Shown here: positions 10,001 to 64,000 of the stretch, in pieces
Numbering within the stretch: the first letter of the stretch is position 1
Layout: each line of letters starts with the position of its first letter
Origin: a virus
DNA length: 64,000 bases
Reading direction: 5' to 3' (one strand)
Virus record (IMG/VR): IMGVR_UViG_3300027736_000035
Location: 20,994-84,993 of that record
Position numbers and translations under genes: made by a program
The notes under the pieces: generated by a model
The model's input: only the letters and a program-made list of their open reading frames with translations
Databases searched by the model: none
What the model was told of the DNA's origin: nothing

Positions 10001-10527
10001 ATCAGAATTGGATTAGAGACACCACAGGTACTGTACCCAAACCAAATGTTCCTACTATCGATGAACTCAACACTGCATACCAAGGATTGCAAAACTACAA
10101 AATGATCAGCGACAATATTATTTTAAATCCTGTGACTTTCAAGCCATTATTTGGCATGAAAGCAGCGTCTGAATTACGTGCCACTATCAAAGTGATACGT
10201 GCAGCCAACTCCACAGCCAGTGTCAGCGAAATCAAAAGTTCTGTGGTGGCAGAAACAAACAACTATTTTAGCATTGACAAATGGAATTTTGGAGATACTT
10301 TTTACTTCTCTGAATTGGCAGCATATTTGCATCGCGTGCTAGGAACTATCATCAGTTCAGTGGTGTTGGTGCCATTGAACTCACAAAAATACTTTGGTGA
10401 CTTGTATGAAGTAAGATCAGCACCAAATGAATTATTTGTTAATGCAGCTACTATAGATAATATTGAAGTGATTGATGCACTCACCAGTACCAATCTACGT
10501 ACAGCTCCAGGCAGTGGAGTAATTTAA
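7060..10527 (+). CDS. 6: Baseplate wedge protein gp6-like
   Basis: An 1,155-residue protein. The N-terminus (YPETFNDYIESSEFIALLDV, then AFRTDLNTRENYMDTA and RRDSVVQLANLVSYT) is the strongly conserved opening of gp6-type baseplate wedge proteins in T4-like phages; the central part (about 190-450) has the baseplate-J-like beta structure with the typical PAQYYTQNRMVNGEDY segment. gp6 dimers form the inner ring that clamps gp7 and gp53. The protein is about twice as long as T4 gp6 (660), with the extra length in the middle and C-terminal half, a feature shared with aquatic T4-like phages as I remember them. The stop overlaps the next start (TAATG). Confidence 0.88.
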   Translation: MATTTRQTAIFGVEDWKQIYQTYREADFQSYDFETLRKSFVDYLRLYYPETFNDYIESSEFIALLDVMAFMGQALAFRTDLNTRENYMDTAERRDSVVQLANLVSYTAKRNTESQGLLKVFSVVTTENVTDYNGVNLSNVTVDWADPTNPAWQEQFTAIINASLVDSQRIGRPGNRQTILGVRTDEYGINLVPGYLPVIPYNATVDGISMPFEAMSSTSMGENYLYEPSPRVNQTFNILFRNDQLGFNSNNTGYFFMFKQGVLQNQDFNLPERIANRTVNINIEGVNQEDRWLFQLDTVGTVNREWQFTENVYSAAAEQIGTSLRPIFSVTSRANDQITLVFGDGVFSEIPVGTFRCYVRASNGLQYIINPEEMQAVSLPISYISRTGNLETITFTCGITQPVSNSQTRESIAEIKQRAPAQYYTQNRMVNGEDYNLFPYTQYNSILKSKALNRASIGTSRYLDLVDNTGKYSSTNTFGSDGGLWEQNILPTILFTWNTRNEIADVITNQVQPQLLAPIVKQFYYANFPRQSVNTGATAASTWQQSTTLANQTTGFFRNSTVTSAWPSGTPIPVGNVVGITNPFYFVTPGALIKFVSPTGYYFDRNNRLVQGSPSRSDEKLEIWASPLQVIGDGYSGGLGNLPSGAGPVSLNNFVPTGAIVDTIIPLFVTDLPLDLEAAISEQIVLYRNFGLGYDNDGSVTGTPYAWYLITSTNLDQNSAWSQTVPGIAGNKDGVNSDASWLIQFVTVNQSYTITFRGLQYNFGSVLQTRFFFYEGQQIYDSRTGTVIKDYINMLAVNTQPDSTDHLPGDVPVTIIGQPVESDGYVDDFQVLVSYRDADSDGIPDNPDFFTEIVAPTVNANQKFVFLQQTVDFDNLQRYLLVEQGRVNSDYATIDDIELVKSEWSPGQVFYAYDQAAFYELSVSVTGVRTLVSVSGWIARVGRQSLYYQYRHNSPLTNRIDPGTTNIIDLYVVPQSYYTAYQNWIRDTTGTVPKPNVPTIDELNTAYQGLQNYKMISDNIILNPVTFKPLFGMKAASELRATIKVIRAANSTASVSEIKSSVVAETNNYFSIDKWNFGDTFYFSELAAYLHRVLGTIISSVVLVPLNSQKYFGDLYEVRSAPNELFVNAATIDNIEVIDALTSTNLRTAPGSGVI

Positions 10528-25500: not shown

Positions 25501-25541
25501 ATACCGACACTGTTGCTGCAAGGTTTTTACGTGGTTTATAA
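10527..25541 (+). CDS. Giant 5,004-residue baseplate/tail protein (gp7 position) with seven-bladed propeller
   Basis: One uninterrupted frame of 15 kb. The N-terminus (SVDFLPQIFQTETNKQFLAA; KKTQGFIGRTVGPGVNPND; NFSQYFWLPAGPD near residue 130) and a core with PWEMLGF near residue 1435 and EVKPYHVQLREFNLRYNG near 3818 match a large structural protein that follows gp6 in aquatic T4-like phages, where T4 has gp7. Residues about 2355-3240 hold seven FG-GAP-like blades. Other parts are beta-rich: repeated Ig-like units with the pattern V-x-V-N/D-G-x-x-L ... DY, two glycine-rich GTGY segments (near 2646 and 3915), and near 4430 a YTITQIGTTNFVAIGAG module common in phage tail proteins. It probably forms the outer baseplate wedge and carries receptor-binding parts. 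The gp7 equivalence is inferred from position, not from alignment. Confidence 0.75.
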   Translation: MATARSVDFLPQIFQTETNKQFLAATLDQLTQEPKFKKTQGFIGRTVGPGVNPNDKYVVESTAVRRDYQLEPGVISLVPDTNTIKNAITYPGINDAVSFSGGDGGRPDRLYQSEYYSWDPFVDFDSFVNFSQYFWLPAGPDAVDVAASTIPTSDNFFVTRENGIYTFSGVAGTDPVIDLVRGGNYTFQIAQNNKETANYRVTNSGISAYLLDGLRNPTLTLARGNTYVFNLVLNGDFPFWIKTAPVTGLEDVYSTGVTRNGARTGLVTFTVPQDAPDILYYASQTQLNMQGTLNIVNGTQGTGPGFWIQAFPGVSGKDPSQPNISSRDVLGVSNNGTDLGTVTFNVPQKTAQSFYYSLTPFGVNSSGALITPVDIICDLSFNQVNNQLVDVFLATYGGIDGTKNLNGRTLVFTQSLTDAEASLWQIKYVTIDLLTYISLSKLADIPVLNKFKARYGINYSNTEWYKKANGIFERIPLLTAAQDTLYYQDGTDPEIFGRIRLIEQTADTTLYIDAILGKKSYTSANGVVFSNGLKVKFVGDVFPTSYASGTLDLTITAAQSGSNYLTTESTANLYVGEKIIFIDSIGGVSPGTYYVQSLAANGTQFSISLQKGGGAYPLQVGSANARAIAVSDLEYYVSGVGTAIELLPVEIFSTPELYVVDANDSTIYVEPGQTDYLTINRASRDRNAWSRSNRWFHSDVINATAKYNNTTAVFDNNYRAKRPIIQFRPNIRLWNMGTDGKNPVDIIDFSQTDAFSNVEGSTGYSVDGYTLIDGSRVIFAADQDQNVKDKIYVVSFIVPDTVAPLIAQPIISLTPAQDGEVLVDQCTVCLYGTTSPGVTFWFDGTTWTEAQQKTAVQQAPLFNIYDTNGYSFGDQSKYQSSTFVGSKLFSYAVGDTSIIDPILQFPLQYLNINNVGDIVFVNNLYKDTFLYVADNASVTLDISSGSVKEYTTRASYRRLIGWQTAATPSQCYQQFKFTYTGTTLKLDVKVDDPVNNTPAIKIYVGSVFQAPSTYSYLTTATTTTITLNKTHVPGDIIEVLALSSQTSSAAFYQVPINLQNNPLNGNSPEFTLGTIRTHYESICENILTVVGPVNGSNNTRDLGNLVPYGLTILQQSSPLTLAGYFLRSPDYNIFASLSFADREYNKYKYQLLDAVTNQTIGFDTISQVLDTAIQSITLGRVESQPFYWSDMLPSGAVYTTTTYTIGYTSTSSFDTVQVYNYRSANYLGMNVYLGEVLLVRDRDYVVATDGPRITVLIDLAVGSTLVLQEYSATYGSFAPNTPTKLGLYPAFVPQVITQRTSNGNVQVTQGHDGSITPLFNDIRDQVLLEFETRIYNNLKLDGNPVPLTIDDVLPGQFRSTGFSYSEITEILNQDFLRYVGANKLDYRTQDFRATNEFTWNYSSTKNKLDNSQNLLGAWRGINRYFYDTEQPQYTPWEMLGFSKKPLWWEDAYGPAPYTGDNLVLWDDLAAGYVADPVAPYFRPKYARPASTGSIAEPQRGGIWGAGPYPSLFPIIPTGDEGQLLSPFNSVMGVYSNAQFQKSWAPGDGGPVEASWWNSSSYPFAVMHVLAVTKPAKFFALFADRDLYRYNEEFGQYLLNDRYRLDANGIEVYGNGVSKASYIDWIVDYNRQSGINSTDELTADLANLDVRLCYRMASFSDKQYIKLYTEKSSPNSTNTTLMIPDESYNLLLYKNQPFDRTDYSAVVVQNVPGGYAVFGYSTSLPYFKVLASRSTGQLRTISSGGATVRVPTFYTNTEVHVPYGFIFANETSVCDFLLSYGELSKQQGITFTNRANGYVLDWNQMCQEFLYWSQQGWGENALLNLNPLAAKLTVTRDQAVVDSIVVQAADNVLLDQNNRELPTRNLNITRIDNTFTCEPLTTQTLSFIDLKYTTYEHMIVLNNQSVFGDLIYQPITGARQNRLILIASNTADWTGQINTPGFILNLNNVEQWSGLKRYTKGQIVKYKNVYWSSLNIVQPSEKFNFNEWVQSDYTQIELGLLPNLANKANQLSNSYNINSANLEQDNDLLSYGLIGFRPRQYMAALNLDDVSQLNVYRQFLGSKGTILSAELFSNANLGKEAADYSIYENWAVLRSVYGANANRSFVELRLDRSYLSSNPSLVQVVVPQQVSSADQQILLGDVWKQSYKLTSPDFLPTTTITPTDIALPTAGYVNLNDADITVFDINDLANIAANLDAIAVGTSIWIAKINDYDWNIYRAQSVPGAVQHVCDNLDGTSRVIFSQSHGLSAGDTLIIKFFDTEVNGVYQVLSVSNLTTVNIAFQFVQKRTVANGLGLGFTLQTMRVAQASDVINLPYANDVVPGAKVWVDNNGDDLWEVIQKQQVFVDSSQISPLLLDAGEQFGVAVAQATARLALFVGSPRYGFGGSAQKGAVYVYVKNSQDQYAPVSPIINADGILTLDRTGVRGYGNAVDFGNQTWAVAGASQSLGPSSETNNGYASVIYRDPALGQPGVNPFINWQLLTLPGTTTSTTPGAGEFGYSVTMSLDERWMYISAPGLNTVYAYGRVDWQDQFVTILGTGTTTQYTIAGTIQINNSSQLKVLIDGQLQTTGYSIDAAFDKVTFTTAPDLGALIKFQRINTQQLDAQTYYDVSQTSTSGSGTGAKFTITRVRGEVGQPGASFGGVGATSAGTGYAVGNTITIAGASFGGTNNIVLTITSIGTGGTLGGFNIAYTPPTLATVFSLNEYFFTAINIYSFSIAVDGVLYRPNIDYTFDTVTQDLTFTGTGPASGTIIIARAQSYFTYVNSITASGLGASDRFGHSIACTTDGRQVVIGTPYSTQNSNAEAGSVYVIDRNVQRFIYGSDGSTVTFTLLGTPAAPVSVIVNNVFLTNQTDSVIGAPNTFYWNGANTVTVNADLQYGDVVEIETNQFAQIQKITQNTVANFSNFGQSVDICSYNCSLYVGVPQSSVQIYKGGVVERDVNQSRIYGTITSTVVNAALTAGNTVRVNNMDVVVPAAWNSLSAYYKNDVVYNLSGSTYTIYVALQDVPAATALTNVSYWSPVTTTTVAASVYVRALAAQINSTVPNVIATVDVSGYLTVSVKNNNSAPAFNKLQVAPGSIGTAFATLAFTTFAFTQTIVSPYPVKYSAFGSSVNIADSATTLVVGAPNGTLYLITVFDDGNTDFDADSTTFITTVINSGAVYTYDYLPSASMSISNPGKFLFGQQINNSEVNALDTFGSTVSYVDGILVAGAPNNDVGDSTANYGRIFLFENPTRTPAWTVIRQQQPVVDVSLLNGVFTYDRITSATTQFFDFFDPLQGKILGAARQNIDYISGIDPANYNIGPSGINGATWWSGHVGEVWWNTSTVRFIDPNQDDITYASRRWGQNFPGSSIDVYQWILSTVPPASYTGPGVPYSTSSYSINTRLNRDGIFATEYYFWVRGITTTAVQEGKTLSVATVAQYIENPRASGITYMAPINASTVALYNAAEYIVASDTVINISFDREATESNVHTEYELIAEGKPDAFLSTNLYRKLQDSFCGVDTFGNNVPDANLSPAERYGVQFRPRQSMFVDRFDALKNYLTRVNAVLARFTISESRSFNLLNSAEPEPSAATGLWNLRVANLEILGFQNIYTVPLGYRYLVVTDSNNRGLWTIYTVIASDQVAGERLLRLSFVQGYNTADYWSYIDWYLPGYNSSTKVLAEVANQAALRTLGLSVGSSVRVTANSQGKWEIYLLTNTGWERVGLQDGTIAFSAELWDYQLGRFGFDIEVFDAQYYDQEPVKETRKIIQAINEELLINDLLIERNLALTLMFNYVLSEFAAPEWLVKTSLIDVDHRIRDLVPYQNYRRDNQEFVIDYIKEVKPYHVQLREFNLRYNGADQYPGSLTDFDVPAYYNTSLTVPQYTSPILLPYEHGSSDVANFSSDLSSNSTVWSAFSYNQWYNNYLLTLTAVNIVNNGTGYTEPPLVIVGNVWTANTAVSINQQLFYVDGNMNNLYTVVANGTTGIIPPTFTTGGTQTDGTAMLVYAGPAATATAVINSLGQVVAINVTSSDAVYRSTPAISFDGGGGVGRDARAYAIITPGLARSFKTTIKYDRFQYFSDVQDWSSSGTYQDGQLVRYDDRVWQAASADSTAVVGPDFSLEDWTPIPARDLTGVNRTMGLYVPGVNQPGLDLPLLIDGVDYPGVQVYGNYFLGTALTDATYASSFTDATLGNTFSSINVDGGEFVGLYEGHAPEELVNGAEFDTLDLRVYTRPGADWNRDGHGFQMTDQRYLYEAAVTDTFSWAGLVENPVNISVVNTTTNLPLSLNVDYTVDWVLQTLTVLTVANGDILSITAYELGGGSQLYRDNFAGTGLQTVIIPVNAAEIISLAIFVNGTLTSGATWTPYVASVDWNQLSSYSFKDVVNINDGSSAETYYRAIKNVPAGIEITNVLYWLEYVPTFESIVNFGTVYNTTDEIALTAFGVSTIDAGYFVIGRQYTITQIGTTNFVAIGAGANTIGTVFTASGVGSGTGQASTTYSWSAPQTQYIVADANFVTFKTTTLTNSVQGSNLANMIVTRNGLRLQPPEGREWISDGSSLSFGLPTRGGYSQSIINATTDVIVWVDEILQQQSIGGVPGTYSVTPYVAANDREVVFNVAPPAGARILITVTTQAGYDLVGNSLQIVGGVNLNDLFAVTTFNDTSQLNPLTLVFNGPVITGVEVVDPFDPLPNDPAYNSQPGSFDYATVNNTQWSFSYSKGAAVYNNQFWLERANVSPSRLWVTLDGYALTNSIDYTVEGEYLILASGAIKPDQIMVITEITNSIVPDAIAFRIFQDMRGVQATYRMTTATTTVLTQPLSATDNIMYVENVSALGHPNLELGVFGVCTVDGERIMYRDVDAATNTIMGLMRGTAGTAAADHLVNAAVYNLSRGNLLQSSYQDYIVSDTSTGDGSTTVFYAPSINVNDFVDSSSEAPAIEVYVGGTRQYAYSDTTATSQYRWFVTDFDPLAVDFVVDNTVYPPLFAPAPNVEVTILVRQGVTWYQRGVTTPSDGVALQDTDTVAARFLRGL
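17593..20240 (+). repeat. Seven FG-GAP-like beta-propeller blades inside the giant protein
   Basis: Blade starts at about 17605 (FGVAVAQ), 17793 (YGNAVDF), 18008 (FGYSVTMS), 18850 (FGHSIACT), 19237 (FGQSVDIC), 19843 (FGSSVNIA) and 20107 (FGSTVSYV). Each continues with a strand ending in a G-x-P/G-A-P turn (VGSPRYG, AGASQS, ISAPGL, IGTPYS, VGVPQS, VGAPNG, AGAPNN) and a strand of the type VYVY or VYAY. Seven is the normal count for an integrin-alpha-type propeller. Blades 1-3 and 6-7 are tightly spaced; blades 3-4, 4-5 and 5-6 are separated by about 280, 130 and 200 residues of other beta modules, which would emerge as loop insertions. Confidence 0.7.
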
Positions 25542-41881: not shown

Positions 41882-43093
41882 ATGAATAAACCACACGATA
41901 AATTTTGTGTACTGCCTTGGATCAGCATTGAAGCCAGTCCTGTTGGAACAGTGCGGCCCTGTTGCTTAGCCGATGACGAAATAGTAGACAACACTGGTGA
42001 AAAATTTCAATTGGCCACAGCAGACTTTGCTGACATACAAAACAGCCGTCACATGCGTGATTTACGTGAAGATTTTTTAGCAGAAAAGAAACCGCAGACA
42101 TGCCGTAAGTGTTGGAATGAAGAACGATCTGGCCGTACCAGCAAACGTATGCACACATTGGATCGTCTCAAACATGTTCTCAAAGATCAAGAATGGACCA
42201 CGGATGCTAAACCGTTAATGTTTTTGGATTTAAAATTGGGTAATATCTGCAATCTCAAATGCAGAATATGCGGATCATGGTCGAGTTCTCAATTTGCCAG
42301 TGAAGAAATCTCTTTCTTACCACGTGAAGAACAAAAAAGCAGTCATGCTTATCTGATGCTGCGTGCCGGTGCCTGGCCCAAAGAAAACACGCAGTTTTGG
42401 ACTCAGATTGATAGTGTGTTGTCCGACATACGTTATATTGAATTCACTGGCGGCGAACCTTTCATGATTGAACAACATTTTGACATGTTGCAAGGCATAG
42501 TAGATCGTGGCATTGCTGATCAAGTAGAGATACACTACAACACCAACGGCACACAATGGCCCGAGCGCGGTCCAGACATTTGGAAACATTTTAAAACAGT
42601 AGAAGTGGCATTTAGTATAGACGATGTGGGTGCTAGATTTGATTATCAACGCACCAACGCAGACTGGGCAGTGGTGTTAGACAATATCACAAGTTTTCAA
42701 TACTTGCAAGATCAAATGCCCAACTTGCGGTTACAATGTTGTTCAACAGTGAATGTGTTCAATGTGCGTTACCTTGATGAACTAGCACATTGGATAGCTC
42801 TGCAACGCTTTGACTTTGTGTACTGGAACATGATGCATGACGCCTGGTATTTTAGCATAGCCACTTTGCCCGACACTGCAAAAACACAAATTATTGCACA
42901 CTTAGAATTGGCCGATGTGCCCGATCAATACCAAGACGAATTTGAGCGCATAATAGATTTTATGCGTAACGGAGCATCCACCGACGGATTTATGACACGT
43001 ATGAAGATAGCCGATCTAGATAGAAAACGCAATCAAGATCTACGAACAGTGGCTCCTGAATTTGCACAGATAATAGAATACACAGGTCCATGA
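41882..43093 (+). CDS. Radical SAM protein with N-terminal SPASM-like domain (copy 4)
   Basis: A 403-residue protein. N-terminal cysteines C9 (FCVLPWISIEASPVG), C27-C28 (RPCCLAD) and C74/C77 (TCRKCWNEE) precede the radical SAM motif C123-NLK-C127-RI-C130. The SAM-binding segment is IEFTGGEPFMIEQHF. Later strands (VEIHYNTNGTQWP, VEVAFSIDDVGARFDYQR) match the usual radical SAM barrel: N-T-N-G after strand 4 and S-x-D/D-x-x-G after strand 5. It begins with no spacer after 41881 and overlaps the next transferase-like gene by ATGA. Probably modifies a peptide or sugar-linked substrate. Confidence 0.88.
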   Translation: MNKPHDKFCVLPWISIEASPVGTVRPCCLADDEIVDNTGEKFQLATADFADIQNSRHMRDLREDFLAEKKPQTCRKCWNEERSGRTSKRMHTLDRLKHVLKDQEWTTDAKPLMFLDLKLGNICNLKCRICGSWSSSQFASEEISFLPREEQKSSHAYLMLRAGAWPKENTQFWTQIDSVLSDIRYIEFTGGEPFMIEQHFDMLQGIVDRGIADQVEIHYNTNGTQWPERGPDIWKHFKTVEVAFSIDDVGARFDYQRTNADWAVVLDNITSFQYLQDQMPNLRLQCCSTVNVFNVRYLDELAHWIALQRFDFVYWNMMHDAWYFSIATLPDTAKTQIIAHLELADVPDQYQDEFERIIDFMRNGASTDGFMTRMKIADLDRKRNQDLRTVAPEFAQIIEYTGP

Positions 43094-44097
43094 CGGTTGT
43101 ATTAATGTTTCCGGACAATCTGATGCCTTGGCACACTCAGGTCATGCTGCAAGGATGTCCATTTGAGATTTTTGATCCAGGTATCAAGTATTCAACACCA
43201 ACTGTGTTTTTGTACAACATGTATGGCCCTTACCAGGAATATATCAAGCAACATCTTGATCAAGGACACCGAGTCATATATGATGCCAAAAATGAACACT
43301 ATGTGAATCCTGACAAACATTGGGTGCTGGACGAATTTGTGGCACATCCAGGTCAAGGAATGATTTTGATATCTGGACATGAGCCACAAACAATTGCCGG
43401 AGTAGCAATAGCAGCCACGCCTTATTGGTATTGGATAATTGACCAAACAGAGTTTAAAAAATTTGGATACGACCAGTATCGGTGGAACCCCACATACAAA
43501 TTTGATTTTTTCATGCAGATAAGCCTGCCCAGGGTTGACAGAGACGTGCTGTATGATATAATGGCACCTGTGCTGCATCGCGGATTACACAGTTATCGCA
43601 GTCGTGGAATATTTTTGCCCAATGATGTTGACACAACCGCAGTACCAGATTGGCAACGATATACTAATTTTGATTGGATTGATCAATGCAATCTCACAGT
43701 GATAGTGGAGACTAACATTGACGATGCTACCATAACTGGAACCAGTATAACAAAAAATGATCAGTGGTTCTTGTGCGAAAAGACTTATAAGCCCATTGCG
43801 TATGGCCACCCTTTTTTACAAGCAGGCACCTGCGGCAATTTAAATTATGTACGGCAGCAAGGATTTGAAACCTTTCCCGAACTATGGGATGAAAGCTACA
43901 GCAATTTGCCACACTACACTGATCGCGTGCGAGCCATACTGAGTATCCTCCAATCATTTGACCCTGCTGCATTGTCAATGCCCATTGTTCGAGAAAAATT
44001 GCAGCATAATCAAGCGAGATTTTTTGACAAAGATCTAACTGCAAAATTTCTAGCAGACACCATCACAAATCCTATCATTGAGTTTGCCAATGACTAA
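43090..44097 (+). CDS. EKTxKP-family transferase-like protein (copy 5)
   Basis: A 335-residue protein. The N-terminal half has Rossmann-like strands (TVFLYNMYGP; HRVIYDAKNEHYV; GMILISGHEP). The C-terminal half holds the complete family signature: VIVETNIDDA, then FLCEKTYKPIAYGHPFLQAG, then VRQQGFETFPELWDESYS and a helical end with QHNQARFF. The family's final element, N/H-N-Q/R-x-R/x-F, is therefore also present, as in 34799 and 37587. It lies between two radical SAM genes and overlaps both. GT-B-like transferase by motif; substrate unknown. Confidence 0.62.
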   Translation: MTVVLMFPDNLMPWHTQVMLQGCPFEIFDPGIKYSTPTVFLYNMYGPYQEYIKQHLDQGHRVIYDAKNEHYVNPDKHWVLDEFVAHPGQGMILISGHEPQTIAGVAIAATPYWYWIIDQTEFKKFGYDQYRWNPTYKFDFFMQISLPRVDRDVLYDIMAPVLHRGLHSYRSRGIFLPNDVDTTAVPDWQRYTNFDWIDQCNLTVIVETNIDDATITGTSITKNDQWFLCEKTYKPIAYGHPFLQAGTCGNLNYVRQQGFETFPELWDESYSNLPHYTDRVRAILSILQSFDPAALSMPIVREKLQHNQARFFDKDLTAKFLADTITNPIIEFAND

Positions 44098-45379
44098 ACC
44101 AGACACATTGTGCATGGCTCCATGGGTACATACGTACCTTTCGCCACAGACCGAAAGACGCATGTGCTGTGCATCAAGAGAACCTGCACAAAATTTTGAA
44201 CAATACATTGATACTGCATCAGGCTCAGGTACTTACATACCAATCACACTAGAACAGCACTGGAACAGTGATCACATGCGATCAGTCCGTCGCCGTATGA
44301 TGGCCGGAGAACAATTGTCTGAATGTGAAGTTTGCAATGATCAACTGCTGAACACCGACGTTTATCGCACATATTTTTGGCAACTTTTTAAACATAAATA
44401 TTCAGACGCAATGGCAGCCACTGGTAAAGATGGATTTTATGAACCATTGCCGGTGAGTTGGGATTATAGATTCAGTAACCTTTGCAATTTCAAATGTAGA
44501 ACCTGCGGAGATATGTTGAGCAGTGCTTGGGAGTCAGAACAAAAGACACACCGCATGGTGGACTGGAGCAATTCCAAAAACAACTGGATGCGCTCCGAAG
44601 TGCGAGAACAAATCTCTCAGTTCCAGGACAGTCAAATTGAGCAAGAGTTTAGCGATGCCGTAGAACAGCACAGAGTAGAAGAAGTGTACTGGGTGGGTGG
44701 CGAACCCTTGATGTACGAACAGCACTGGCGATACATGCAGCGCATAATAGAATTAGGGGACGGGCCACGAGTATATGCTAGATACAATACAAATTTATCA
44801 AGAGTGGATTATCGCGGGATCAACTTGTATCGCGATATTTTGTCTGGGCTTAGGGATTGGCAGATATGTGCAAGTCTCGACGGCACAGGCCCAATTGGAG
44901 AATACATTAGAACAGGCCTTGACTATGATCAATGGCTTGAAAACTTCCGTGGAGCAATTGCAATCCAACGTCACCCACGTCAAGTCAGAATTGACTTTAC
45001 GCTCACTCTGCCCGGAATGTTTGAAGTTGGCCCAATTACAGAACTCGCTGGACAACTTGACGTCGATGTCTTGGCCAAAGTAATTTTCTCATTCAGCCCT
45101 GACATTATGATGAGTCCATTAGCCTTGCCCAGGCATTTGTTGCATCCGTGGTTGGATGAATTGATTGCCAAAACATCAGGTGCCATGCAGGCAGTATTGA
45201 TGCAGTTAAAAAATCGACCCACTTTTGAAGAACAATGGCCAGATACCTATCAACAAAGTCTTGCCCAGGGCCGCGCTCGTGTGTTACAATTGGAACAGAT
45301 AAGAACACAATCTGTCACTATGACTGATATCCTATCGGCCAGACCTGCGGTATTAAAATGGTGGATGAACATTGCTTAA
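44090..45379 (+). CDS. Radical SAM protein with N-terminal SPASM-like domain (copy 5)
   Basis: The frame can begin at a TTG at 44078, but the ATG at 44090 overlaps the upstream stop by eight bases (ATGACTAA) and gives MTKPDTLCMAPWVH, comparable with copy 4, so it is preferred; 429 residues. N-terminal cysteines are C8, C26-C27 (RMCCAS) and C79/C82 (CEVCND). The radical SAM motif is C132-NFK-C136-RT-C139, with VYWVGGEPLMYEQHW as the SAM-binding segment and YARYNTNLSR and ICASLDGTGPIGEYI as later barrel strands. It is the last of five such genes within 12 kb. An internal out-of-frame reading frame at 44775 looks membrane-like but is judged a shadow. Confidence 0.87.
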   Translation: MTKPDTLCMAPWVHTYLSPQTERRMCCASREPAQNFEQYIDTASGSGTYIPITLEQHWNSDHMRSVRRRMMAGEQLSECEVCNDQLLNTDVYRTYFWQLFKHKYSDAMAATGKDGFYEPLPVSWDYRFSNLCNFKCRTCGDMLSSAWESEQKTHRMVDWSNSKNNWMRSEVREQISQFQDSQIEQEFSDAVEQHRVEEVYWVGGEPLMYEQHWRYMQRIIELGDGPRVYARYNTNLSRVDYRGINLYRDILSGLRDWQICASLDGTGPIGEYIRTGLDYDQWLENFRGAIAIQRHPRQVRIDFTLTLPGMFEVGPITELAGQLDVDVLAKVIFSFSPDIMMSPLALPRHLLHPWLDELIAKTSGAMQAVLMQLKNRPTFEEQWPDTYQQSLAQGRARVLQLEQIRTQSVTMTDILSARPAVLKWWMNIA

Positions 45380-57936: not shown

Positions 57937-58864
57937 GATAATTATCAAAACCTTCTGCCACATCAATCTGGGGATCGTATCCTAACACAGCTCTAGCACG
58001 ATCTATGTTTAATGCACCACGTGACGGAAAGTCTGCGTCTTTGTCACGCAATTCAATACTGCCATTGGCTACAATTTTAACAATCATTTCAGCAGCCTGT
58101 AACAAGCTCACACTGTGACTTTTTGTGATGTTGAATGTTTGATTGGCAGCAGCCGGCACAAGTGCGGCAGCCACAATACCATCAGCAGCATCATCCACAT
58201 AAGTGAAGTCTAGTGTTTCGCCTGCTCCATTAACTCGGAGCACTCCGCCGCGCATTGCTGTGAGCATGAATTTTGATACGACTCGGTCTTCAACATCAAG
58301 TGGCCCATAAACAGCACTGGGGCGGATAATAGCGTGATCAAAACAACCACGGCGAGTATAATCTTTAACAAGGTCTTCTCCTGCAAGTTTCATTATGCCG
58401 TACTGCCCTTGCGGCCTACATACAGCGTCTTCGGTCACATCATTCGTAAAGTTACCGTACACCATACTGCTGCTGATATAAACAACTCGTTTCACATGGT
58501 GTTTTTTGGCACTCTCGAGCACATTGATCAATCCCTCCATCATGACTCTAGCACCCCACGCAGGGTTGGCATTTACAACTTTCTGTCGGGGAAAGCTAGC
58601 CATATGTATCATGACCTCAGGCTGTTCCATCTCAAATATATCGTCAATGGAGTCTTTATTACAGATGTCTCGATTGTACAAGTGCGATGGTGATAGCTGG
58701 ATTTTTTTCAATCTCTCGACGATCAAGTAATCAAGTTCTGCTGGTGGAATCATTCCATACGTGGTGCGGTTGTCAATCACGCTTGCTGTATGGCCTTGCT
58801 GTTGTAGTCGTGTGACCACATTGTGCCCGATCAGCCCAAGACCGCCTGTGACCAGTATATTCAT
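57890..58864 (-). CDS. NAD-dependent epimerase/dehydratase (short-chain, sugar-nucleotide type)
   Basis: The ATG at 58864 overlaps the upstream stop (ATGA) and gives MNILVTGGLGLIGHNVV, so it is preferred to 58876; 324 residues. GGLGLIG is the NAD-binding glycine motif, VIDNRTTYG the strand-2 acidic turn, MIHMASFPRQ the conserved strand-4 motif, and YISSSMVYG with QYGIMKLAGED supplies the Ser and Y-x-x-x-K catalytic residues. RPSAVYGP is also present. It would epimerise or dehydrate an NDP-sugar. The next gene is the aminotransferase, so the product is probably its substrate or a related donor. Confidence 0.92.
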   Translation of the reverse strand: MNILVTGGLGLIGHNVVTRLQQQGHTASVIDNRTTYGMIPPAELDYLIVERLKKIQLSPSHLYNRDICNKDSIDDIFEMEQPEVMIHMASFPRQKVVNANPAWGARVMMEGLINVLESAKKHHVKRVVYISSSMVYGNFTNDVTEDAVCRPQGQYGIMKLAGEDLVKDYTRRGCFDHAIIRPSAVYGPLDVEDRVVSKFMLTAMRGGVLRVNGAGETLDFTYVDDAADGIVAAALVPAAANQTFNITKSHSVSLLQAAEMIVKIVANGSIELRDKDADFPSRGALNIDRARAVLGYDPQIDVAEGFDNYHAWFKNSLYWAPKTI

Positions 58865-59136
58865 TTTCCTGCCCATTTCAATTTATAAAACATGTAGACC
58901 TTTTCATCCATCACAGTAAACTTACCATGTAAACGATCCCAATAGCAACCATCTACAAATTTTCCCGGCGCCCCGTATGTTTTTTCTAACCACTGACACT
59001 CTTCGTCCTTGAGTTTTTCGTCTGACCTATACAAATACACAGGCACAAATTCTGTGCCATTCCAGATTTGTTTTTTCACAGGAGGACGAGGAACTGCGTC
59101 GCGCTCGTCTAGGAATTCAATTCGTGGTGATAACAT
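58861..59136 (-). CDS. Small phage protein with C-terminal FYKLKW motif (91 aa)
   Basis: A soluble protein, RIEFLDERDAVPRPPVKKQI at the start, LKDEECQWLEKTYGAPGK in the middle and VYMFYKLKWAGK at the end. The end motif recurs in the neighbour at 59117 (TFYKLKY) and in the pair 62811/63089 (SWFQLKY and AWFQLSH), all minus-strand small genes. It is coupled to the epimerase by ATGA and overlaps the upstream gene by 20 bases. It is not recognisable as an enzyme; it could be a nucleic-acid or partner-binding small protein. Confidence 0.6.
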   Translation of the reverse strand: MLSPRIEFLDERDAVPRPPVKKQIWNGTEFVPVYLYRSDEKLKDEECQWLEKTYGAPGKFVDGCYWDRLHGKFTVMDEKVYMFYKLKWAGK

Positions 59137-59455
59137 ATTTCAGTTTGTAAAAAGTTTGATCTGACTCTTTCATGCGTGCCATGATAGCAAATTCAAATCC
59201 GTATGTGGCATGATCAACTATGCGTACCCACCAAGGAGGTTCCACAGCATGCTCCATCACAAATTGACCGGCTTCAGTCTGTTGCCATTCGTATATGGGT
59301 TGAGCTGCGTACAGCACAGGATCTTCAACATCGCCCATGCGGAATCGATGCACCAGCAAGTCAGAAATTGCCACAGGCCGGCCGTTGACTATCTTGGTCT
59401 GTCGTGGTTTTTTGTGTCGGTTATGTTCTTGATCTAGATCGCGTAAAATGGCCAT
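59117..59455 (-). CDS. Small phage protein with C-terminal FYKLKY motif (112 aa)
   Basis: Starts MAILRDLDQEHNRHKKPRQTK and contains HRFRMGDVEDPVLYAAQPIYEW, then VEPPWWVRIVDHATYGFEFAIM, and ends QTFYKLKYVITTN. It is probably related to 58861 and to the 62811/63089 pair, which share the beta hairpin before a [FW]-x-x-L-x-[KS] end. A sigma70-like promoter within the 3' end of thyX serves it; the -10 box lies five bases before the ATG, predicting a leaderless transcript. No function recognised. Confidence 0.6.
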   Translation of the reverse strand: MAILRDLDQEHNRHKKPRQTKIVNGRPVAISDLLVHRFRMGDVEDPVLYAAQPIYEWQQTEAGQFVMEHAVEPPWWVRIVDHATYGFEFAIMARMKESDQTFYKLKYVITTN

Positions 59456-59460
59456 GTGCT

Positions 59461-59489
59461 AGTATAGCATGCCATTTAGTTTTTTGCAA
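59461..59489 (-). promoter_or_regulatory. Sigma70-like promoter at the end of thyX
   Basis: On the minus strand, TTGCAA (59489-59484) is followed after 17 bases by TATACT (59466-59461), five bases before the ATG at 59455. It would start the operon 59455-56839 (two small genes, epimerase, aminotransferase) independently of the upstream genes. Confidence 0.5.
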
Positions 59490-60147
59490 CCAACTTGGTT
59501 GCCATAGGAAAGATTTTGGCAATCACTTGAGCACATGCCACAGCCACTTGTTGATGTTCTTGTTGTGTGCCATTGGCACTGCGTAACTGAACAAAGTGTA
59601 TCCAACTGCGTAGTGTACCGTTCATGTACAGTCTGCTGACTGTGTTGCCTTCGGGCAATATGGCTCTGGCTTGTTCTTTGGCTATGCCTAATTCTATAGC
59701 TCTGGCATAGTGTTTTTGTGCCAACATTATTACTTCTTGTTGAGCACTATCCCACCACAGTGCTAGATCTTCGTTGTTGGTTTCTATACTGTTTTGTCTG
59801 TTTCGAGTGTCTTGTAGTCTAGCGGCTCGCCGTACAAAGCTGAGATCCTGCGTTGGATCAGCATAACGTTGGCTAAACTCTTGGAAACTGAAACTTCTGT
59901 GTCTAAGGATCTGTCTTGCAATATCTCTTGTGGTGGTAATTTCAATGCAGGCCGAGACCATTTCAAGTGGACTCCAGTGTTGGTGCTGGATGAGGTATTG
60001 AATAAGTCTCTCTGAAGTTTCTGTGTTGAATTGATTGGAGGGATTGCTAACACGGGCACAGTATGCAATGAGGTCTTGTGCATCTTCAATTCCCATGCTA
60101 GCAAATTCTTCAGTTGGCTGGCTGTGACTGAGCAGTCGTACATTCAT
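59476..60147 (-). CDS. thyX: Flavin-dependent thymidylate synthase ThyX
   Basis: A 223-residue enzyme that methylates dUMP to dTMP with methylenetetrahydrofolate, FAD and NADPH. The defining motif RHRx7S is R82-H-R84 ... S92 followed by QRY, in LRHRSFSFQEFSQRYADP. Other conserved parts are TSERLIQYLIQHQHWSPLEM (read as HWSPLEM near 57) and ARAILPEGNTVSRLYMNGTL, SWIHFVQLRSAN near 185-196, which matches the ThyX C-terminal motif. Length is typical (200-250). It is coupled by ATGA to the gene before and followed by a promoter for the next group. Phages use it to raise thymidylate supply during DNA replication. Confidence 0.95.
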   Translation of the reverse strand: MNVRLLSHSQPTEEFASMGIEDAQDLIAYCARVSNPSNQFNTETSERLIQYLIQHQHWSPLEMVSACIEITTTRDIARQILRHRSFSFQEFSQRYADPTQDLSFVRRAARLQDTRNRQNSIETNNEDLALWWDSAQQEVIMLAQKHYARAIELGIAKEQARAILPEGNTVSRLYMNGTLRSWIHFVQLRSANGTQQEHQQVAVACAQVIAKIFPMATKLVAKN

Positions 60148-60446
60148 AGGTCTTTTAATAGCTTGTCTGTTTCTGGCTGCACCATGTTGGCCACAGCACT
60201 GACGTCGACCACAAAGTCAACGTCACGAACCGAGTCACCTAGATCGGTCAACGTGCGGTTGAGAGCAATTTCAATTTGGTCTGTGTCCAGTCCCTGACGC
60301 CGTAGTGTTTGTAAGTTGATGGTTTTTTGTTTACGACCATCAATTTTTATAACAACCTTCTTGATACACTCAAGTGGCACTTCGGTCATGGACACTTCAT
60401 TGATAATATGTTCCCATCGTTCAAGAAATTCATCACTGAACGGCAT
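60144..60446 (-). CDS. Conserved phage protein, 100 aa, function unknown
   Basis: An acidic helical protein, MPFSDEFLERWEHIINEV at the start, VPLECIKKVVIKIDG and KQKTINLQTLRRQGL in the middle and FVVDVSAVANMVQPETDKLL at the end. I recall the family from aquatic T4-like phages next to the two genes that precede it here, with no known function. Overlaps: 14 bases with the upstream gene and ATGA with thyX. The gene order is thus 61375, 61179, 60446, thyX in one operon. It might regulate or bind DNA, but no motif proves it. Confidence 0.75.
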   Translation of the reverse strand: MPFSDEFLERWEHIINEVSMTEVPLECIKKVVIKIDGRKQKTINLQTLRRQGLDTDQIEIALNRTLTDLGDSVRDVDFVVDVSAVANMVQPETDKLLKDL

Positions 60447-61179
60447 CTGAAGTCACTGGCTTGGCTTTTGCAGGACGACCTTTTTTGGGTGCAACAGGTG
60501 CAGCAGGTACAGCGACAGGTGCAGCAACAATCATTTCAGGGCCATTTCTCACACCAGGATACATGCGTTGAGCATCTTTCTTCATGCGAGCAGCTTCTGA
60601 GATCATGCTCTTGGCTTCAACCTCCATGCGTTTGGCCTGAGCCAACATGTTGTGAGCCAGGGTTTTGTCATCCAACGCACCATCCGAGCTGGCCATCAAT
60701 GGAGCCACAGGCGGCGTTACTGTGCCACGTTCTTGACTGCGTTTGTATTCAGCTTCAGCCTTGCGTTTCTGTGCAGGATCCACAAACCCAGTGTTTTTGT
60801 CAATGTCTTGTAGACGCTTGAGAGCAGCATCTCCGGATTCCATCTCACGGATGATTTTGTTCATTTCATCCAGCTTGACTGAGCTTTGGCTGGTGGGTGT
60901 GACAATGATCTGTGCTGTGGGTACTTTCTTGATCATACCTTCTTTGTGCAATGCTTCCAATTGTCCACGTCCATCGGGCAACAAGTTTCTATGCAGCACT
61001 TCGCTCAGCTGTGTTGCTGCCTGCCCAGGTGCGCTTTCCAGTGTGGTCATAATGCTGTTATGAATATGAGTGGGCAATGTGTCTGGATAAATCACCAGGC
61101 ACATGTGTTCCTCATTTGGCACTTCTCTGAATAATATAGCAACCTTGCGATCACCGTGACGTCCGATATGTTTAAGCAT
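60433..61179 (-). CDS. Conserved phage protein, 248 aa, with Lys/Pro/Ala tail
   Basis: The frame is open to 61227, but the ATG at 61179 has AAGGAGAG eight bases upstream, overlaps the upstream stop by eight bases and gives MLKHIGRHGDRKVAILFREV. The first 110 residues are an ordered domain (MCLVIYPDTLPTHIHNSIM; EVLHRNLLPDGRGQLEALH), followed by coiled-coil-like helices (LDEMNKIIREMESGDAALKR; KAEAEYKRSQER; MLAQAKRMEVEAKSMISEAA) and an Ala/Pro/Lys-rich tail with KKGRPAKAKP, an AT-hook-like GRP core. Familiar from aquatic T4-like phages as a conserved protein of unknown function. The tail suggests DNA or partner binding. Confidence 0.75.
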   Translation of the reverse strand: MLKHIGRHGDRKVAILFREVPNEEHMCLVIYPDTLPTHIHNSIMTTLESAPGQAATQLSEVLHRNLLPDGRGQLEALHKEGMIKKVPTAQIIVTPTSQSSVKLDEMNKIIREMESGDAALKRLQDIDKNTGFVDPAQKRKAEAEYKRSQERGTVTPPVAPLMASSDGALDDKTLAHNMLAQAKRMEVEAKSMISEAARMKKDAQRMYPGVRNGPEMIVAAPVAVPAAPVAPKKGRPAKAKPVTSDAVQ

Positions 61180-61375
61180 TAGGCTCTCCTTGTGGATTTG
61201 GTTGCTCGGGAACAGGAGCAGGGGCACTGGATACTGCTAAGAAAGCAGAGAGTTTTTCATATATTCCTCCTACCAGTGTCATTTCATTGCCACGTATGGC
61301 TCCGCGAGTGATCACTGTATCCAGTATAACTTTGATTGACGCTAGGTCAGCAATGGTTAGTTGTTTGTCGTTCAT
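61172..61375 (-). CDS. Conserved small phage protein, 67 aa
   Basis: MNDKQLTIADLASIKVILDT, then a short helix (MTLVGGIYEKLSAFLAV) and a Pro-rich tail. The LTIADL ... GG-x-x-x-x-L-x-x-F pattern occurs in small genes upstream of the 248-aa family in other aquatic T4-like phages, as far as I remember. It is the first gene of its operon: a terminator hairpin and a TAAATA box lie directly upstream, and its end overlaps the 248-aa gene by eight bases. Function unknown. Confidence 0.7.
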   Translation of the reverse strand: MNDKQLTIADLASIKVILDTVITRGAIRGNEMTLVGGIYEKLSAFLAVSSAPAPVPEQPNPQGEPNA

Positions 61376-61386: not shown

Positions 61387-61426
61387 CAAAAGAAAACCTC
61401 CTAAGATAAATTTCTTAGGAGGTTTT
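61387..61426 (-). terminator. Rho-independent terminator after the VWA gene
   Basis: A perfect 13-bp stem, AAAACCTCCTAAG (61393-61405) with CTTAGGAGGTTTT (61414-61426), with an 8-base loop. On the minus strand it is followed by CTTTTGT. It lies 17 bases after the stop of the VWA-protein gene. Confidence 0.85.
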
Positions 61427-61443: not shown

Positions 61444-62748
61444 TTATTCGGCGTCGTCGTAGTAGGCATATTGCCCCCAGGGCGGAACAATGGTTGTGGT
61501 ACCATGCAAGATCCAAACTGTATCTGCATAGTTCTCATCGCCCCAGCTGCCCCAGGGATAACCGTCAGTGAACACAACCAGGCGCTTGGGTTCGATCTCG
61601 TTGTCTTTTAGGTATCTAAAAATTGCATCAAAATCAGTACCGCCGCCGCCCTTTACTTCGTAATCACGGATGTCATCCAGGTTCTCCGAATCGTACTGTT
61701 GCGGATTGTAGCATTCGGTATCAAATGTCACCACATGGATTTTGTAAGCAGGGAACGACTCCATGATATTGGCAGTCTCACTCAAGATGTCTTTGAGCAT
61801 GTTTTCATTCATTGAGCCTGAAGCGTCAATAAACAGTGCAATATCAATCATGGGATCCAACTTCATGCCAGGCATCACAGCGTCCATGTGCCAACCTTTA
61901 CGGCTGGCTCGCATCCAGGTGTAATCACTCTTGATTGTGCTCTCCAATTGCATACGCAACAGTTCGCGCCAGTTCATCTTGGGCTCAGTGAGATCTTGGA
62001 TTATGCGCCTGACACCAGCAGGAATATTGCCAGCACCATCCACAGTAGCCGCAGCCGCCAGCATGGCTTCTTTGATTTCGTCGCGGATGGCTCTGCGTTC
62101 TTCTTCGCTCAGTTTAGGACGGCCTTTGCCGTTGCCTTCACCGTCGCCTTCACCGTCAGCATCGCCTTCGCCATCCAAGTGCTCGTCGATCATCTTGTCA
62201 ATGAGATCACTCATGTTGAGTTTCTTGGCATTTTTCATCAAGTCGTCAAACACTTCTTCCGAGCTCATGCCATCATACTTGGTGTCGTACAAGGCAGGCA
62301 CTGTGGTGATCAACTCGCCCACCTTGTGTTTGACCAAATCGCCATTCACACAAAAGTCATTGGCAATATTCCAAATCTGCGGATCACGATCTCCACGACG
62401 TCCAAAGTGATCATAAACACAATGCAGTACCTCATGCCCAAACAAGAATTCAATCTCTTTGGTCTTGAGCATTTTGATGAAGCGACTATTGTAATAAAAA
62501 TTACGACCATCTGTTGCCGCAGTACCGCACCATTCATCAGCATTGACCAATTTCAAACGTGTGGCAAGATTGCCAAAGAAACTGGCCTTAAGCAACAGGC
62601 CCACACGGGCTGTGACCAATTTTTCGCGTACCTCGTTGTCTATCTTGGGGTCAGTGGGCCCAAGTAGATTTTTATACTTGTCGGATTCTTTTTTGTTGTT
62701 GGTGGTGCCAGCTGTGGCATACAGTACATTGGGATTGAAAAATTGCAT
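61444..62748 (-). CDS. VWA-domain protein with N-terminal HExxH metallopeptidase-like domain (DUF2201 type)
   Basis: The ATG at 62748 is preferred over upstream starts because AAAAGGAG lies five bases before it and the promoter is directly upstream; 434 residues. H105-E-V-L-H109 in FLFGHEVLHCVYDH is an HExxH zinc motif with the DUF2201 surroundings (NIANDFCVN downstream). An acidic linker (DGEGDADGEGDGEG, about 192-208) separates it from a von Willebrand A domain with the metal-ion-dependent motif D308-A-S310-G-S312 and GGGGTDFDAIF and VVFTDGYPWG later. Such proteins work with a MoxR-type ATPase as a chaperone or co-factor-inserting pair, and a MoxR-like gene lies two genes upstream. Own promoter and terminator. 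Target unknown. Confidence 0.88.
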   Translation of the reverse strand: MQFFNPNVLYATAGTTNNKKESDKYKNLLGPTDPKIDNEVREKLVTARVGLLLKASFFGNLATRLKLVNADEWCGTAATDGRNFYYNSRFIKMLKTKEIEFLFGHEVLHCVYDHFGRRGDRDPQIWNIANDFCVNGDLVKHKVGELITTVPALYDTKYDGMSSEEVFDDLMKNAKKLNMSDLIDKMIDEHLDGEGDADGEGDGEGNGKGRPKLSEEERRAIRDEIKEAMLAAAATVDGAGNIPAGVRRIIQDLTEPKMNWRELLRMQLESTIKSDYTWMRASRKGWHMDAVMPGMKLDPMIDIALFIDASGSMNENMLKDILSETANIMESFPAYKIHVVTFDTECYNPQQYDSENLDDIRDYEVKGGGGTDFDAIFRYLKDNEIEPKRLVVFTDGYPWGSWGDENYADTVWILHGTTTIVPPWGQYAYYDDAE

Positions 62749-62775
62749 GACTACTCCTTTTTTGGACATACGTGT

Positions 62776-62804
62776 ATTATAGCATTGGTGCCAATACTGG
62801 TCAA
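62776..62804 (-). promoter_or_regulatory. Strong sigma70-like promoter for the VWA gene
   Basis: Minus strand: TTGACC (62804-62799), 17-base spacer, TATAAT (62781-62776). The predicted start is near 62769, giving a leader of about 20 bases with AAAAGGAG before the ATG at 62748. It is the best host-type promoter in the window. Confidence 0.8.
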
Positions 62805-62810
62805 CCAGCA

Positions 62811-63092
62811 CTAGAGATATTTAAGTTGAAACCAAGATAATGCTGACTCATTATAAAAGTCCAGATGAATTTGGTCTTGATAATAACCTCCAACTTTGGC
62901 ACCATCTGCAAAAAAGTTAATCCAATGAGTATGACGGCGGGTTGTGAATCCCAATTCTCTTTTCAATACCCAGGATATGGCAATTGTAGATCCATGCTCA
63001 GATAATATCTTTTGCCATATGTTGTCCCAATGATTAGTATCTTTAAAAATAACAAGATTGGGTTTGACAATAATTTTTTGTTCGGCGGTCAT
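62811..63092 (-). CDS. Small phage protein with C-terminal WFQLKY motif (93 aa)
   Basis: A small soluble protein: VKPNLVIFKDTNHWDNIWQK, then STIAISWVLKRELGFTTRRH, WINFFADGAKVGG and the end ALSWFQLKYL. The last 20 residues align with the neighbour at 63089 (I-x-V-x-S-x-x-x-L-A-WFQL) and more loosely with 58861 and 59117. It overlaps the upstream gene by ATGA. Start MTAEQKIIVKP. I recall similar tiny genes in aquatic T4-like phages. No function known. Confidence 0.65.
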   Translation of the reverse strand: MTAEQKIIVKPNLVIFKDTNHWDNIWQKILSEHGSTIAISWVLKRELGFTTRRHTHWINFFADGAKVGGYYQDQIHLDFYNESALSWFQLKYL

Positions 63093-63412
63093 ACATCACA
63101 GATATGGCTCAATTGAAACCAAGCCAGTTCTTTGTCAGAGCTGACATAGATTCGATAATTTCGATATTGAGTTGTAAATGCCCAGTGAAAGTTTATACCA
63201 TCAGCTTGGTCCATTTCACGTGCCTGACCGGCCATCTTTTGCTGCACATCTACTTCTTGACTCCACCCAAAGTTGTTATTGAACCAACGACGGGCACGAT
63301 CAAAGTCCAACGCGCCAGTGCCTTTCCAACCTGCTTTACTGAACTCAATTGAGTATTTGTAAATCTTGCAATAACTATGGCGACGATCTAGTTTGATTAC
63401 TTCGTATTTCAT
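63089..63412 (-). CDS. Small phage protein with C-terminal WFQL motif (107 aa)
   Basis: Starts MKYEVIKLDRRHSYCKIYKY. The middle contains DFDRARRWFNNNFGWSQEVD, and the end YRIYVSSDKELAWFQLSHI matches the end of 62811. The gene lies just after a terminator hairpin; no promoter box was seen in the 29-base gap, so expression may come from read-through. The Trp/Phe-rich amphipathic end could be an interaction surface common to all four small paralogs. Function unknown. Confidence 0.65.
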   Translation of the reverse strand: MKYEVIKLDRRHSYCKIYKYSIEFSKAGWKGTGALDFDRARRWFNNNFGWSQEVDVQQKMAGQAREMDQADGINFHWAFTTQYRNYRIYVSSDKELAWFQLSHICDV

Positions 63413-63417
63413 AATTG

Positions 63418-63441
63418 AAAACGGGCCCTAGGGCCCGTTTT
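63418..63441 (-). terminator. Rho-independent terminator after the MoxR-like gene
   Basis: Perfect inverted repeat AAAACGGGCCC (63418-63428) / GGGCCCGTTTT (63431-63441) with a two-base loop centre, directly adjoining the stop of the minus-strand gene ending at 63442. On the minus strand it ends in TTTTCAATT. Confidence 0.8.
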
Positions 63442-64000
63442 TTAGTTGCTGCTTTGCAGGATGTACTTGCCGAAACGTTTGTGAAACTCATCAAAGTGTT
63501 TCATCTTGGTTGGCAAGAATGGCAAGTCGTATGTGGTCAACGCAATACGAGCACCCATCACCGTCAGCTCAGTCTCGAAGTTATTCATCATGTAGCTGAG
63601 GAAGTTATCAGCCATCTCGTGGAACTTCTTCTGCTCCACTTTTTTCTCTACTGCATCTTTCAGCTCGTAGCACATGGAAATAACTAGACTGTACATGGCA
63701 CTGACTTCTTTGACATTCAAGTCTTTGACTTTGCCACTCAAGATATCTTCAGGCTTGGGCATGCGTCCTGCCACCTTGCGGTGTGCCATAAACTTCACAG
63801 CAAGTCCTTCACCAACTGTACCTGCTACCAAGTTGGTAATGGTGTCGTCATCGCCGTCGTCATCTTCCAACAGTTCGCTAACGAATGTCCAGGTACGCGG
63901 AGTAGCGAATGCACGGCTTGAGCTTTTGGCATCAAAATCGTACAGGTCTTGCTTGGCAAAACTCAAGTAACCCACAACGTCTTTGTGGATGTTGTTGAGC
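63442..64000 (-). CDS. Partial MoxR-like AAA+ ATPase, C-terminal part (5' end outside window)
   Basis: The frame is open to the end of the window (residues LNNIHKDVVGYLSFAKQD), so only the last 186 residues are seen; the GTG at 63975 is internal. SSSRAFATPRTWTFVSELL is the sensor-2/arginine region of MoxR-type ATPases (A-x-R-A-F-x-T-P-R-x-W). The rest is helical (VSAMYSLVISMCYELKDAVE; KFHEMADNFLSYMMNN). The Walker motifs would be upstream and cannot be checked. With the VWA protein at 61444 it would form a MoxR-VWA pair. It ends at a terminator hairpin. Confidence 0.75.
   Translation of the reverse strand, partial: LNNIHKDVVGYLSFAKQDLYDFDAKSSSRAFATPRTWTFVSELLEDDDGDDDTITNLVAGTVGEGLAVKFMAHRKVAGRMPKPEDILSGKVKDLNVKEVSAMYSLVISMCYELKDAVEKKVEQKKFHEMADNFLSYMMNNFETELTVMGARIALTTYDLPFLPTKMKHFDEFHKRFGKYILQSSN

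Follow-up and report, generated by a model that had tools for sequence, protein, structure and literature searches.

CbbQ-CbbO, NorQ-NorD, RavA-ViaA and CoxD-CoxE are pairs of an ATPase and a VWA partner that remodel or activate an enzyme. Viruses carry comparable pairs: in Acidianus two-tailed virus a MoxR-type AAA+ ATPase and a VWA protein take part in tail assembly (PMC7824862; Scheele 2011 as cited in PMC7159879), and this pair is described in PMC7824862 as having no peptidase domain. The closest described system is the MoxR-vWA(metallopeptidase) pair reported in 2021 from group 2.2 jumbo phages, for which a role in virion assembly with proteolysis was proposed (PMC7824862). Here we describe such a pair in a 64,000-nucleotide stretch of DNA (the window), bases 20994-84993 of the 84,993-base virus record IMGVR_UViG_3300027736_000035 (IMG/VR), so that one edge of the window is the end of the record.

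The pair in the window shares with the one in PMC7824862 a MoxR-type AAA+ ATPase and a VWA protein fused to an N-terminal metallopeptidase-like domain, here PF13203 followed by PF09967, with the ATPase gene upstream in the same direction. It is a genuine member of an already described kind of phage machine, and the zincin-like domain sets it apart from RavA-ViaA, CoxD-CoxE, CbbQ-CbbO and NorQ-NorD. To that description we add many more related contigs, a third gene kept with the pair (encoding gp248, a protein of 248 residues), separate strong sigma70-like promoters for the two genes, links to published virion proteomes and a family of small FxL proteins concentrated in the gap between them. 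We found no functional test of the pair in the literature searched, which left preprints and most subscription journals outside, and a 2026 review of jumbo phages mentions neither MoxR nor vWA.

We favor, with a probability of roughly 45%, the reading that the pair is an ATP-driven protein-remodelling machine, most likely for the maturation or loading of a virion component. For the phage in the window, the observed domains, motifs, gene order, promoter conservation and ATPase entries in virion lists of other phages suggest the following mechanism. A MoxR-clade AAA+ ring, presumably a hexamer, would serve as the ATP-driven motor; the VWA domain, through its metal ion-dependent adhesion site (MIDAS), would dock the client or the ring; and the zincin-like domain may clip the client. 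ATPase and VWA protein would be made from separate host-type promoters, probably early or in mid infection, and the ATPase, perhaps together with gp248, would stay with the particle while the VWA partner would not.

The ATPase and its VWA partner

An earlier note on this DNA had read the two genes as those of a MoxR-like ATPase and a VWA/HExxH protein, and a MoxR-type ATPase with a VWA/zincin partner is supported. The ATPase gene is cut by the record end, and the fragment in the window matches positions 183-354 of phrog_1297, its C-terminal half. Pfam AAA_3 (PF07726) had no match in the window's own record, an expected result given that this record lacks the protein's N-terminal part. We collected a set of at least 80 related IMG/VR loci through the VWA protein, and all locus counts below refer to this set unless stated otherwise. 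Walker A (GxxxxGK[ST]) is present in 74 of 76 ATPases of the relatives; in the remaining two, the fetched sequence ends within the gene. In the alignment of ATPase relatives (A2) Walker B takes the form LFLDE, N143 and R161 are near-invariant and R214 is invariant; the window fragment covers the PRxW part only. We take N143, R161 and R214 to be the sensor-1 asparagine, the arginine finger and the sensor-2 arginine, with PRxW at the sensor-2 position.

The full-length ATPase of one related locus (L001) scored 25.9 bits for AAA_3 (MoxR) against a cut-off of 27, and exceeded the Pfam cut-offs for AAA and AAA_5. A profile of the ATPases compared with the PDB found the AAA modules of midasin as the closest match (2.9e-31). 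Cyanophage CobS was considered as an identity and rejected: the ATPase of PhAPEC5 matches phrog_249 ('porphyrin biosynthesis'), which we take to represent phage CobS, at 9.2e-4 and phrog_1297 at 6e-133, making phage CobS a distant AAA+ relative only. A literature search joining cobS, cyanophage and MoxR returned nothing.

The VWA protein of the window matches PF13203 (DUF2201_N, 9.6e-37) followed by PF09967 (DUF2201, 7.5e-17), and phrog_1314 at 5.1e-104. A complete HExxH and MIDAS residues had been claimed for it, and both are present: HEVLH at residues 105-109 (62436-62422), and the complete DxSxS...T...D set D308, S310, S312, T371 and D395, which does not vary in an alignment of 31 sequences, those of the window and of selected loci among the 80. 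HExxH is kept in 80/80 fetched loci, and this conservation excludes chance for the VWA/HExxH gene. H105, E106, H109 and D131 are conserved in the VWA alignments, and the invariant D131 is a candidate third metal ligand of the zincin-like domain. A first alignment (A1) holds 12 true VWA rows; one further row, L125:6661-8169, is not a VWA gene and was excluded from the VWA profile applied to the orf39 and GTDB loci described below. HExxH stands in 11 of the 12 true rows. The exception is Agrobacterium phage Atu_ph07 (L121:8016-9305), in which HQILH replaces the catalytic glutamate by glutamine and retains the metal ligands. Against the PDB, a VWA profile that contained the wrong A1 row matched integrin I domains (1.4e-5), and a clean clade profile of 31 sequences matched MJ1213 (4QHF), which we take to be a mini-zincin, across HExxH (1.8e-3).

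The longest open reading frame (ORF) of the VWA gene starts at GTG 62811 and would give 455 residues. Because this codon precedes the gene's promoter (62804-62776) and AAAGGAG stands before ATG 62748, the latter is probably the start and the protein 434 residues long.

PHROGs labels phrog_1314 'HNH endonuclease', and many of the listed phage records give the VWA protein that name; Pfam finds no HNH domain in the window's protein. The VWA protein of phage 121Q is annotated 'T4-gp25-like', where N4 gp25 was probably intended. A VWA-frame match in the record of L030 (G017:C1:51241-52443) contains one TGA.

Distribution of the pair

About 750-800 of 50,697 phage records carry the pair; N4 relatives are among them, and so are jumbo coliphages whose records give E. 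coli K-12 as the host. One phage of the 121Q type, Sharanji, has K12 MG1655 as its recorded host, and its block is a 100.0% match to that of 121Q. With tblastn, the VWA protein of the window found 752 of these records and the full-length L001 ATPase 809, N4 gp24/gp25 relatives being among the matches, while the C-terminal ATPase piece as query found 279. By genus word rather than record by record, VWA and ATPase counts are nearly equal for nine genera in the listed top tens; Rhizobium (20) appears in the VWA top ten only.

Proteins of the N4-like phage PhAPEC5 annotated as similar to N4 gp24 and gp25 (Schitoviridae) belong to phrog_1297 and phrog_1314, the families of the window's pair. Unlike in the window, the ATPase gene of PhAPEC5 is followed directly by the VWA gene and then by a dCTP deaminase gene, and no gene in the stretch around its pair is annotated like gp248, as judged from annotation without a profile search.

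Among the IMG/VR loci, 77 of 80 have an ATPase match on the same strand, one of which is a 17-residue remnant. Two of the three loci without a match begin at or near a contig end; in the third, L041, the contig runs on upstream for 3.6 kb, and its 49-kb record has no phrog_1297 match. The gap between the ATPase and VWA genes ranges from 26 to 5057 bases and is free of ORFs in 22 of 76 loci.

The ATPase-VWA cassette is not confined to known phage records, although the contigs concerned may in part be phage. A scan of GTDB gave 73 loci, with the ATPase within the locus in 62 and strictly adjacent upstream in 33; of the 11 without it, 6 have too little upstream sequence. None of the 73 has gp248. 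A distant pair is found in Staphylococcus phage DC4 (L290:2103-5649), a jumbo phage with AR9-like genes, whose VWA protein matched DUF2201 and not DUF2201_N.

The pair and the virion

The earlier note had suggested a virion protein or a radical SAM protein as the client. The first half of this suggestion is plausible, since the ATPase appears in the virion lists of two other phages. Table 1 of the phAPEC6 paper lists 62 virion proteins, among them the ATPase gp265c (49.52 kDa, 6 peptides), gp262c (25.02 kDa, 1 peptide) and the thymidylate synthase gp259c (35.51 kDa, 3 peptides). In phage 121Q the block encodes, in order, proteins of 49.51 (ATPase), 54.06 (VWA), 25.03 (gp248 homologue) and 35.51 kDa (td), to which the phAPEC6 entries of 49.52, none, 25.02 and 35.51 kDa correspond. 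In the DC4 virion proteome, 26 peptides identified 15 proteins, including the ATPase by 1 peptide. This ATPase is phrog_1297 (1.5e-41) and its neighbor, absent from that list, is phrog_1314.

Gene positions are consistent with a link to the particle in some phages. The pair of 121Q comes after genes annotated as structural. In RaK2 the ATPase is the product of ORF053, and ORF051, two positions before it, encodes a protein identified in the virion by mass spectrometry. In roseophage RPP1 a second structural module lies near homologues of gp24/gp25, according to PMC4193335. The main text of the RaK2 paper does not name gp053, gp054 or gp056, and of the four virion proteins given in the available part of the MIJ3 paper, none is identified as a member of the pair.

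Several points weigh against a virion role. The block of phAPEC6 was equated with that of 121Q through masses and order only, and gp262c and the DC4 ATPase are represented by a single peptide each. The VWA partner is in neither list. Both lists hold non-structural proteins (RecA-like or UvsX-like proteins, single-stranded DNA-binding protein, topoisomerase, PhoH and GroEL), and because replication and chaperone proteins are included, the ATPase may have co-purified or be a contaminant. In the window the pair lies on the strand opposite the structural module, beside a thymidylate synthase gene and behind host-type promoters. Finally, because Atu_ph07 carries HQILH, protease activity is not guaranteed across the family, and proteolysis may not be essential for the pair.

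The radical SAM half of the suggestion is not supported. The window has two radical SAM genes, 41882-43093 (under the Pfam cut-off, although its SPASM match exceeds the cut-off) and 44090-45379 (above the cut-off), both at a distance of 16-20 kb and on the strand opposite the pair. The most conserved families around the pair are others; one neighborhood family, in 6 of the 80 related loci, resembles QueE-type radical SAM proteins by eye.

Transcription signals of the pair

The VWA gene had been credited with a strong promoter and a terminator of its own, and we found both (Table 1). The promoter reads TTGACC-17-TATAAT with a preceding TG, and its full string occurs once within the window. Of the distinct regions upstream of VWA genes, 61 of 69 hold a promoter site of at least 10/12, as do 59 of 64 regions upstream of the ATPase, compared with 64 of 631 other plus-strand ORFs of at least 100 residues. 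Terminator-like hairpins stand behind the ATPase gene in 43 of 66 loci and behind the VWA gene in 25 of 66, compared with 34 of 624 other ORFs. The contigs share kinship, so these promoter and terminator counts are not independent events. Of ten large records fetched, the nine listed (all but G027) have a VWA promoter of at least 11/12. The plus-strand structural block of the window has no site of at least 11/12, nor one of 10/12 with TG. Because their promoters and hairpins are conserved, we regard the ATPase and VWA genes as separate transcription units, which judging from the sequence are of host type and probably early or middle.

Late promoters of the T4 type (TATAAATAC) were also considered; they gave 19 matches with at most 1 mismatch against 16.0 +/- 4.3 expected, and hence no signal. 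A separate promoter-like form, TTGAC(C/A/T)NNAA(A/T)..TATAAT, has 34 sites in eleven related phage records and none in reversed sequences. Of these sites 26 stand before an ORF, one of them the ATPase of G008; the form does not cover the VWA promoters and says little about them.

Promoters of an early type would also fit a role in host takeover or counter-defense, with the ATPase and the zinc protein dismantling a host complex early in infection, and MoxR-VWA modules are present in bacterial conflict systems (PMC7159879). We consider this improbable. In PADLOC neither the VWA protein nor gp248 nor any of three small proteins found a match, and the L001 ATPase matched at the AAA level only (1.9e-4). 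Most counter-defense genes are not kept so consistently across a clade, whereas the pair is retained in nearly all fetched clade members, a weak argument since the loci were found through the VWA protein.

The conserved block behind the VWA gene

Behind the VWA gene the order of a 67-residue protein, gp248 and a 100-residue protein is kept, often followed by a thymidylate synthase. With at least 2 kb of downstream sequence, 64 of 66 loci encode gp248. 121Q, RaK2 and XaC1 show this order too, each with a gp248 homologue (phrog_15894); the VWA gene was confirmed by profile in 121Q and is taken from annotation in RaK2 and XaC1. Relatives of gp248 are found in 37 phage records (E <= 0.01), among them phage 30-2, in which the gp248 homologue and the VWA gene lie on opposite strands; the 100-residue protein has no relative in the phage records at that threshold. 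The N-terminal domain of gp248 was modelled by AlphaFold2 with a predicted local distance difference test score (pLDDT) of about 97, and the model had no PDB match with E <= 0.001 (best 0.092). Promoters, gene order and virion proteomes together reduce the search for the client to a few testable candidates in tractable phages, gp248 first.

Where the sequence extends at least 5 kb downstream, 48 of 56 loci have a ThyX or ThyA gene in it (ThyX 39, ThyA 9, both 0; the ThyA label of that cluster was assigned by eye from sequence), the two thus interchanging at one place behind the pair. This bears on the possibility, which we rate as less likely than a virion role, that the pair serves the replication and nucleotide-metabolism phase by remodelling a phage or host enzyme of deoxynucleoside triphosphate supply or DNA replication. 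The strong host-type promoters fit such a phase, N4 gp24/gp25 are cited as middle transcripts (PMC4193335), and a thymidylate synthase is likewise downstream in PhAPEC5, 121Q, RaK2 and XaC1. ThyX or ThyA is present in 12 of 13 pair-carrying phage records, a count that covers pair-carrying phages alone. In several of the 13, however, the synthase lies far from the pair (PA5oct-like 30-2, phage G, SCTP-2, slur16 and a Moorella phage), and Planktothrix phage Pra-JY27 has neither ThyX nor ThyA. PhAPEC5 and Pra-JY27 lack ribonucleotide reductase. The case for the synthase or the reductase as an obligate client is weakened by these absences and by the mutual replacement of ThyX and ThyA, which makes neither fold obligate.

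Small proteins between the two genes

The two small genes noted earlier between the ATPase and VWA genes are present (Table 1). Their products belong to a family of 65-140 residues with diverging N-termini and a common C-terminal FxL(K/R)(W/Y/F) helix; as many as 11 members can be arrayed within about 10 kb. Four members are encoded in the window and others were noted in loci L264, L271, L280 and L285. A C-terminal FxL(K/R)(W/Y/F/H) motif, defined after inspection of the gap proteins so that the count is not blind, ends 68 of 104 small ORFs in the ATPase-VWA gap and 63 of 788 small ORFs elsewhere, the latter group including the window's own ORFs; controls gave 2 matches among 711 large ORFs and 5 among 892 shuffled sequences. 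In 37 distinct loci fetched with the downstream protein orf39, and with orf39 excluded, the motif was found in 48 of 67 gap ORFs and 13 of 388 elsewhere. When 10 loci with a VWA piece in the first set were removed, the remaining 27 gave 38 of 54 and 8 of 270. Across eleven full-length or nearly full-length records the motif ends 31 of 157 small ORFs within 8 kb of the pair and 12 of 875 farther away, and about five of these 12 look genuine by eye.

An iterated profile of orf38 reaches the gap proteins, at an inclusion E of 1e-3 that leaves drift possible. Ten FxL proteins had no Pfam match over the cut-off and at best one chance-level PHROG match. For the AlphaFold2 model of small protein 1 (pLDDT 88; predicted template modelling score 0.79), no fold in the PDB matched at an E of 0.001 or less (best 0.24). 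We met no description of the gp248 link or of the FxLKW family in the literature, where no search was aimed at either.

The association of the FxL proteins with the pair is strong and not obligatory. Searching with orf39 gave 67 loci that have at least 6.2 kb of upstream sequence, and in 56 of these the VWA gene is present. Nine of the 11 records from which the others come lack a phrog_1314 match, several of them being short contigs; in L287 the VWA gene lies just beyond the fetched stretch, and in L264 about 190-200 kb away. An obligate link was rejected because several fetched loci that lack the pair (L264, which is identical to L265 and L267, and L271, L280, L285, L288 and L209) also hold arrays of 5-11 FxL proteins.

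The concentration of the motif in the gap, seen again in the 27 further loci, would be expected if the small proteins were adaptors or clients feeding the machine. We think this very unlikely: besides the arrays without the pair and the distant VWA gene of L264, 22 loci have an ORF-free gap, and local tandem duplication could explain the clustering without function. Just as speculative is the extension of a virion role in which gp248 would be a phage-specific third subunit, borne by the virion with the ATPase, and the gap FxL proteins would be exchangeable, rapidly diversifying target adaptors.

Gene order in the window

On the plus strand of the window, baseplate and tail genes are followed by a block that includes carbamoyltransferase and radical SAM genes. 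Read from 63999 down to about 58861, the minus strand has the ATPase fragment followed by two small ORFs, then the VWA gene and after it three genes of small or medium size, and finally ThyX with two more small ORFs (Table 1).

Table 1. Features of the ATPase-VWA locus, in the order of transcription
Feature	Position	Strand	Evidence or remark
MoxR-type AAA+ ATPase, C-terminal 185 codons	63442..63999	-	phrog_1297 6.3e-32; PRxW conserved in alignment A2
Terminator-like GC hairpin behind ATPase stop	63421..63438	-	By eye in sequence; absent from computed hairpin list
Small protein 1, 107 residues, C-terminal ELAWFQLSH	63089..63412	-	FxL(K/R)(W/Y/F) family
Small protein 2, 93 residues, C-terminal ALSWFQLKYL	62811..63092	-	FxL(K/R)(W/Y/F) family
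Extended -10 sigma70-like promoter of VWA gene	62776..62804	-	11/12 with TG
VWA protein with N-terminal zincin-like domain, probably 434 residues	61444..62748	-	PF13203, PF09967, phrog_1314
Intrinsic terminator behind VWA gene	61393..61426	-	14-pair stem, T-rich tail
67-residue protein, phrog_13789	61172..61375	-	9e-07; conserved in block, 56 loci including window
gp248, 248 residues, phrog_15894	60433..61179	-	Third conserved member of block
100-residue protein	60144..60446	-	Conserved in block, 57 loci including window
ThyX, flavin-dependent thymidylate synthase	59476..60147	-	PF02511 2.1e-42
orf39, 112-residue FxLKY protein	59117..59455	-	Conserved downstream of pair; FxL(K/R)(W/Y/F) family
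orf38, 91-residue FxLKW protein	58861..59136	-	FxL(K/R)(W/Y/F) family

Two further features of the plus strand were observed. The segment 41882-47985 is a biosynthetic-looking block that encodes the two radical SAM-like proteins, one of them under the Pfam cut-off, and a carbamoyltransferase. In the tail region, 10527-25541 is a single ORF of 5004 residues.

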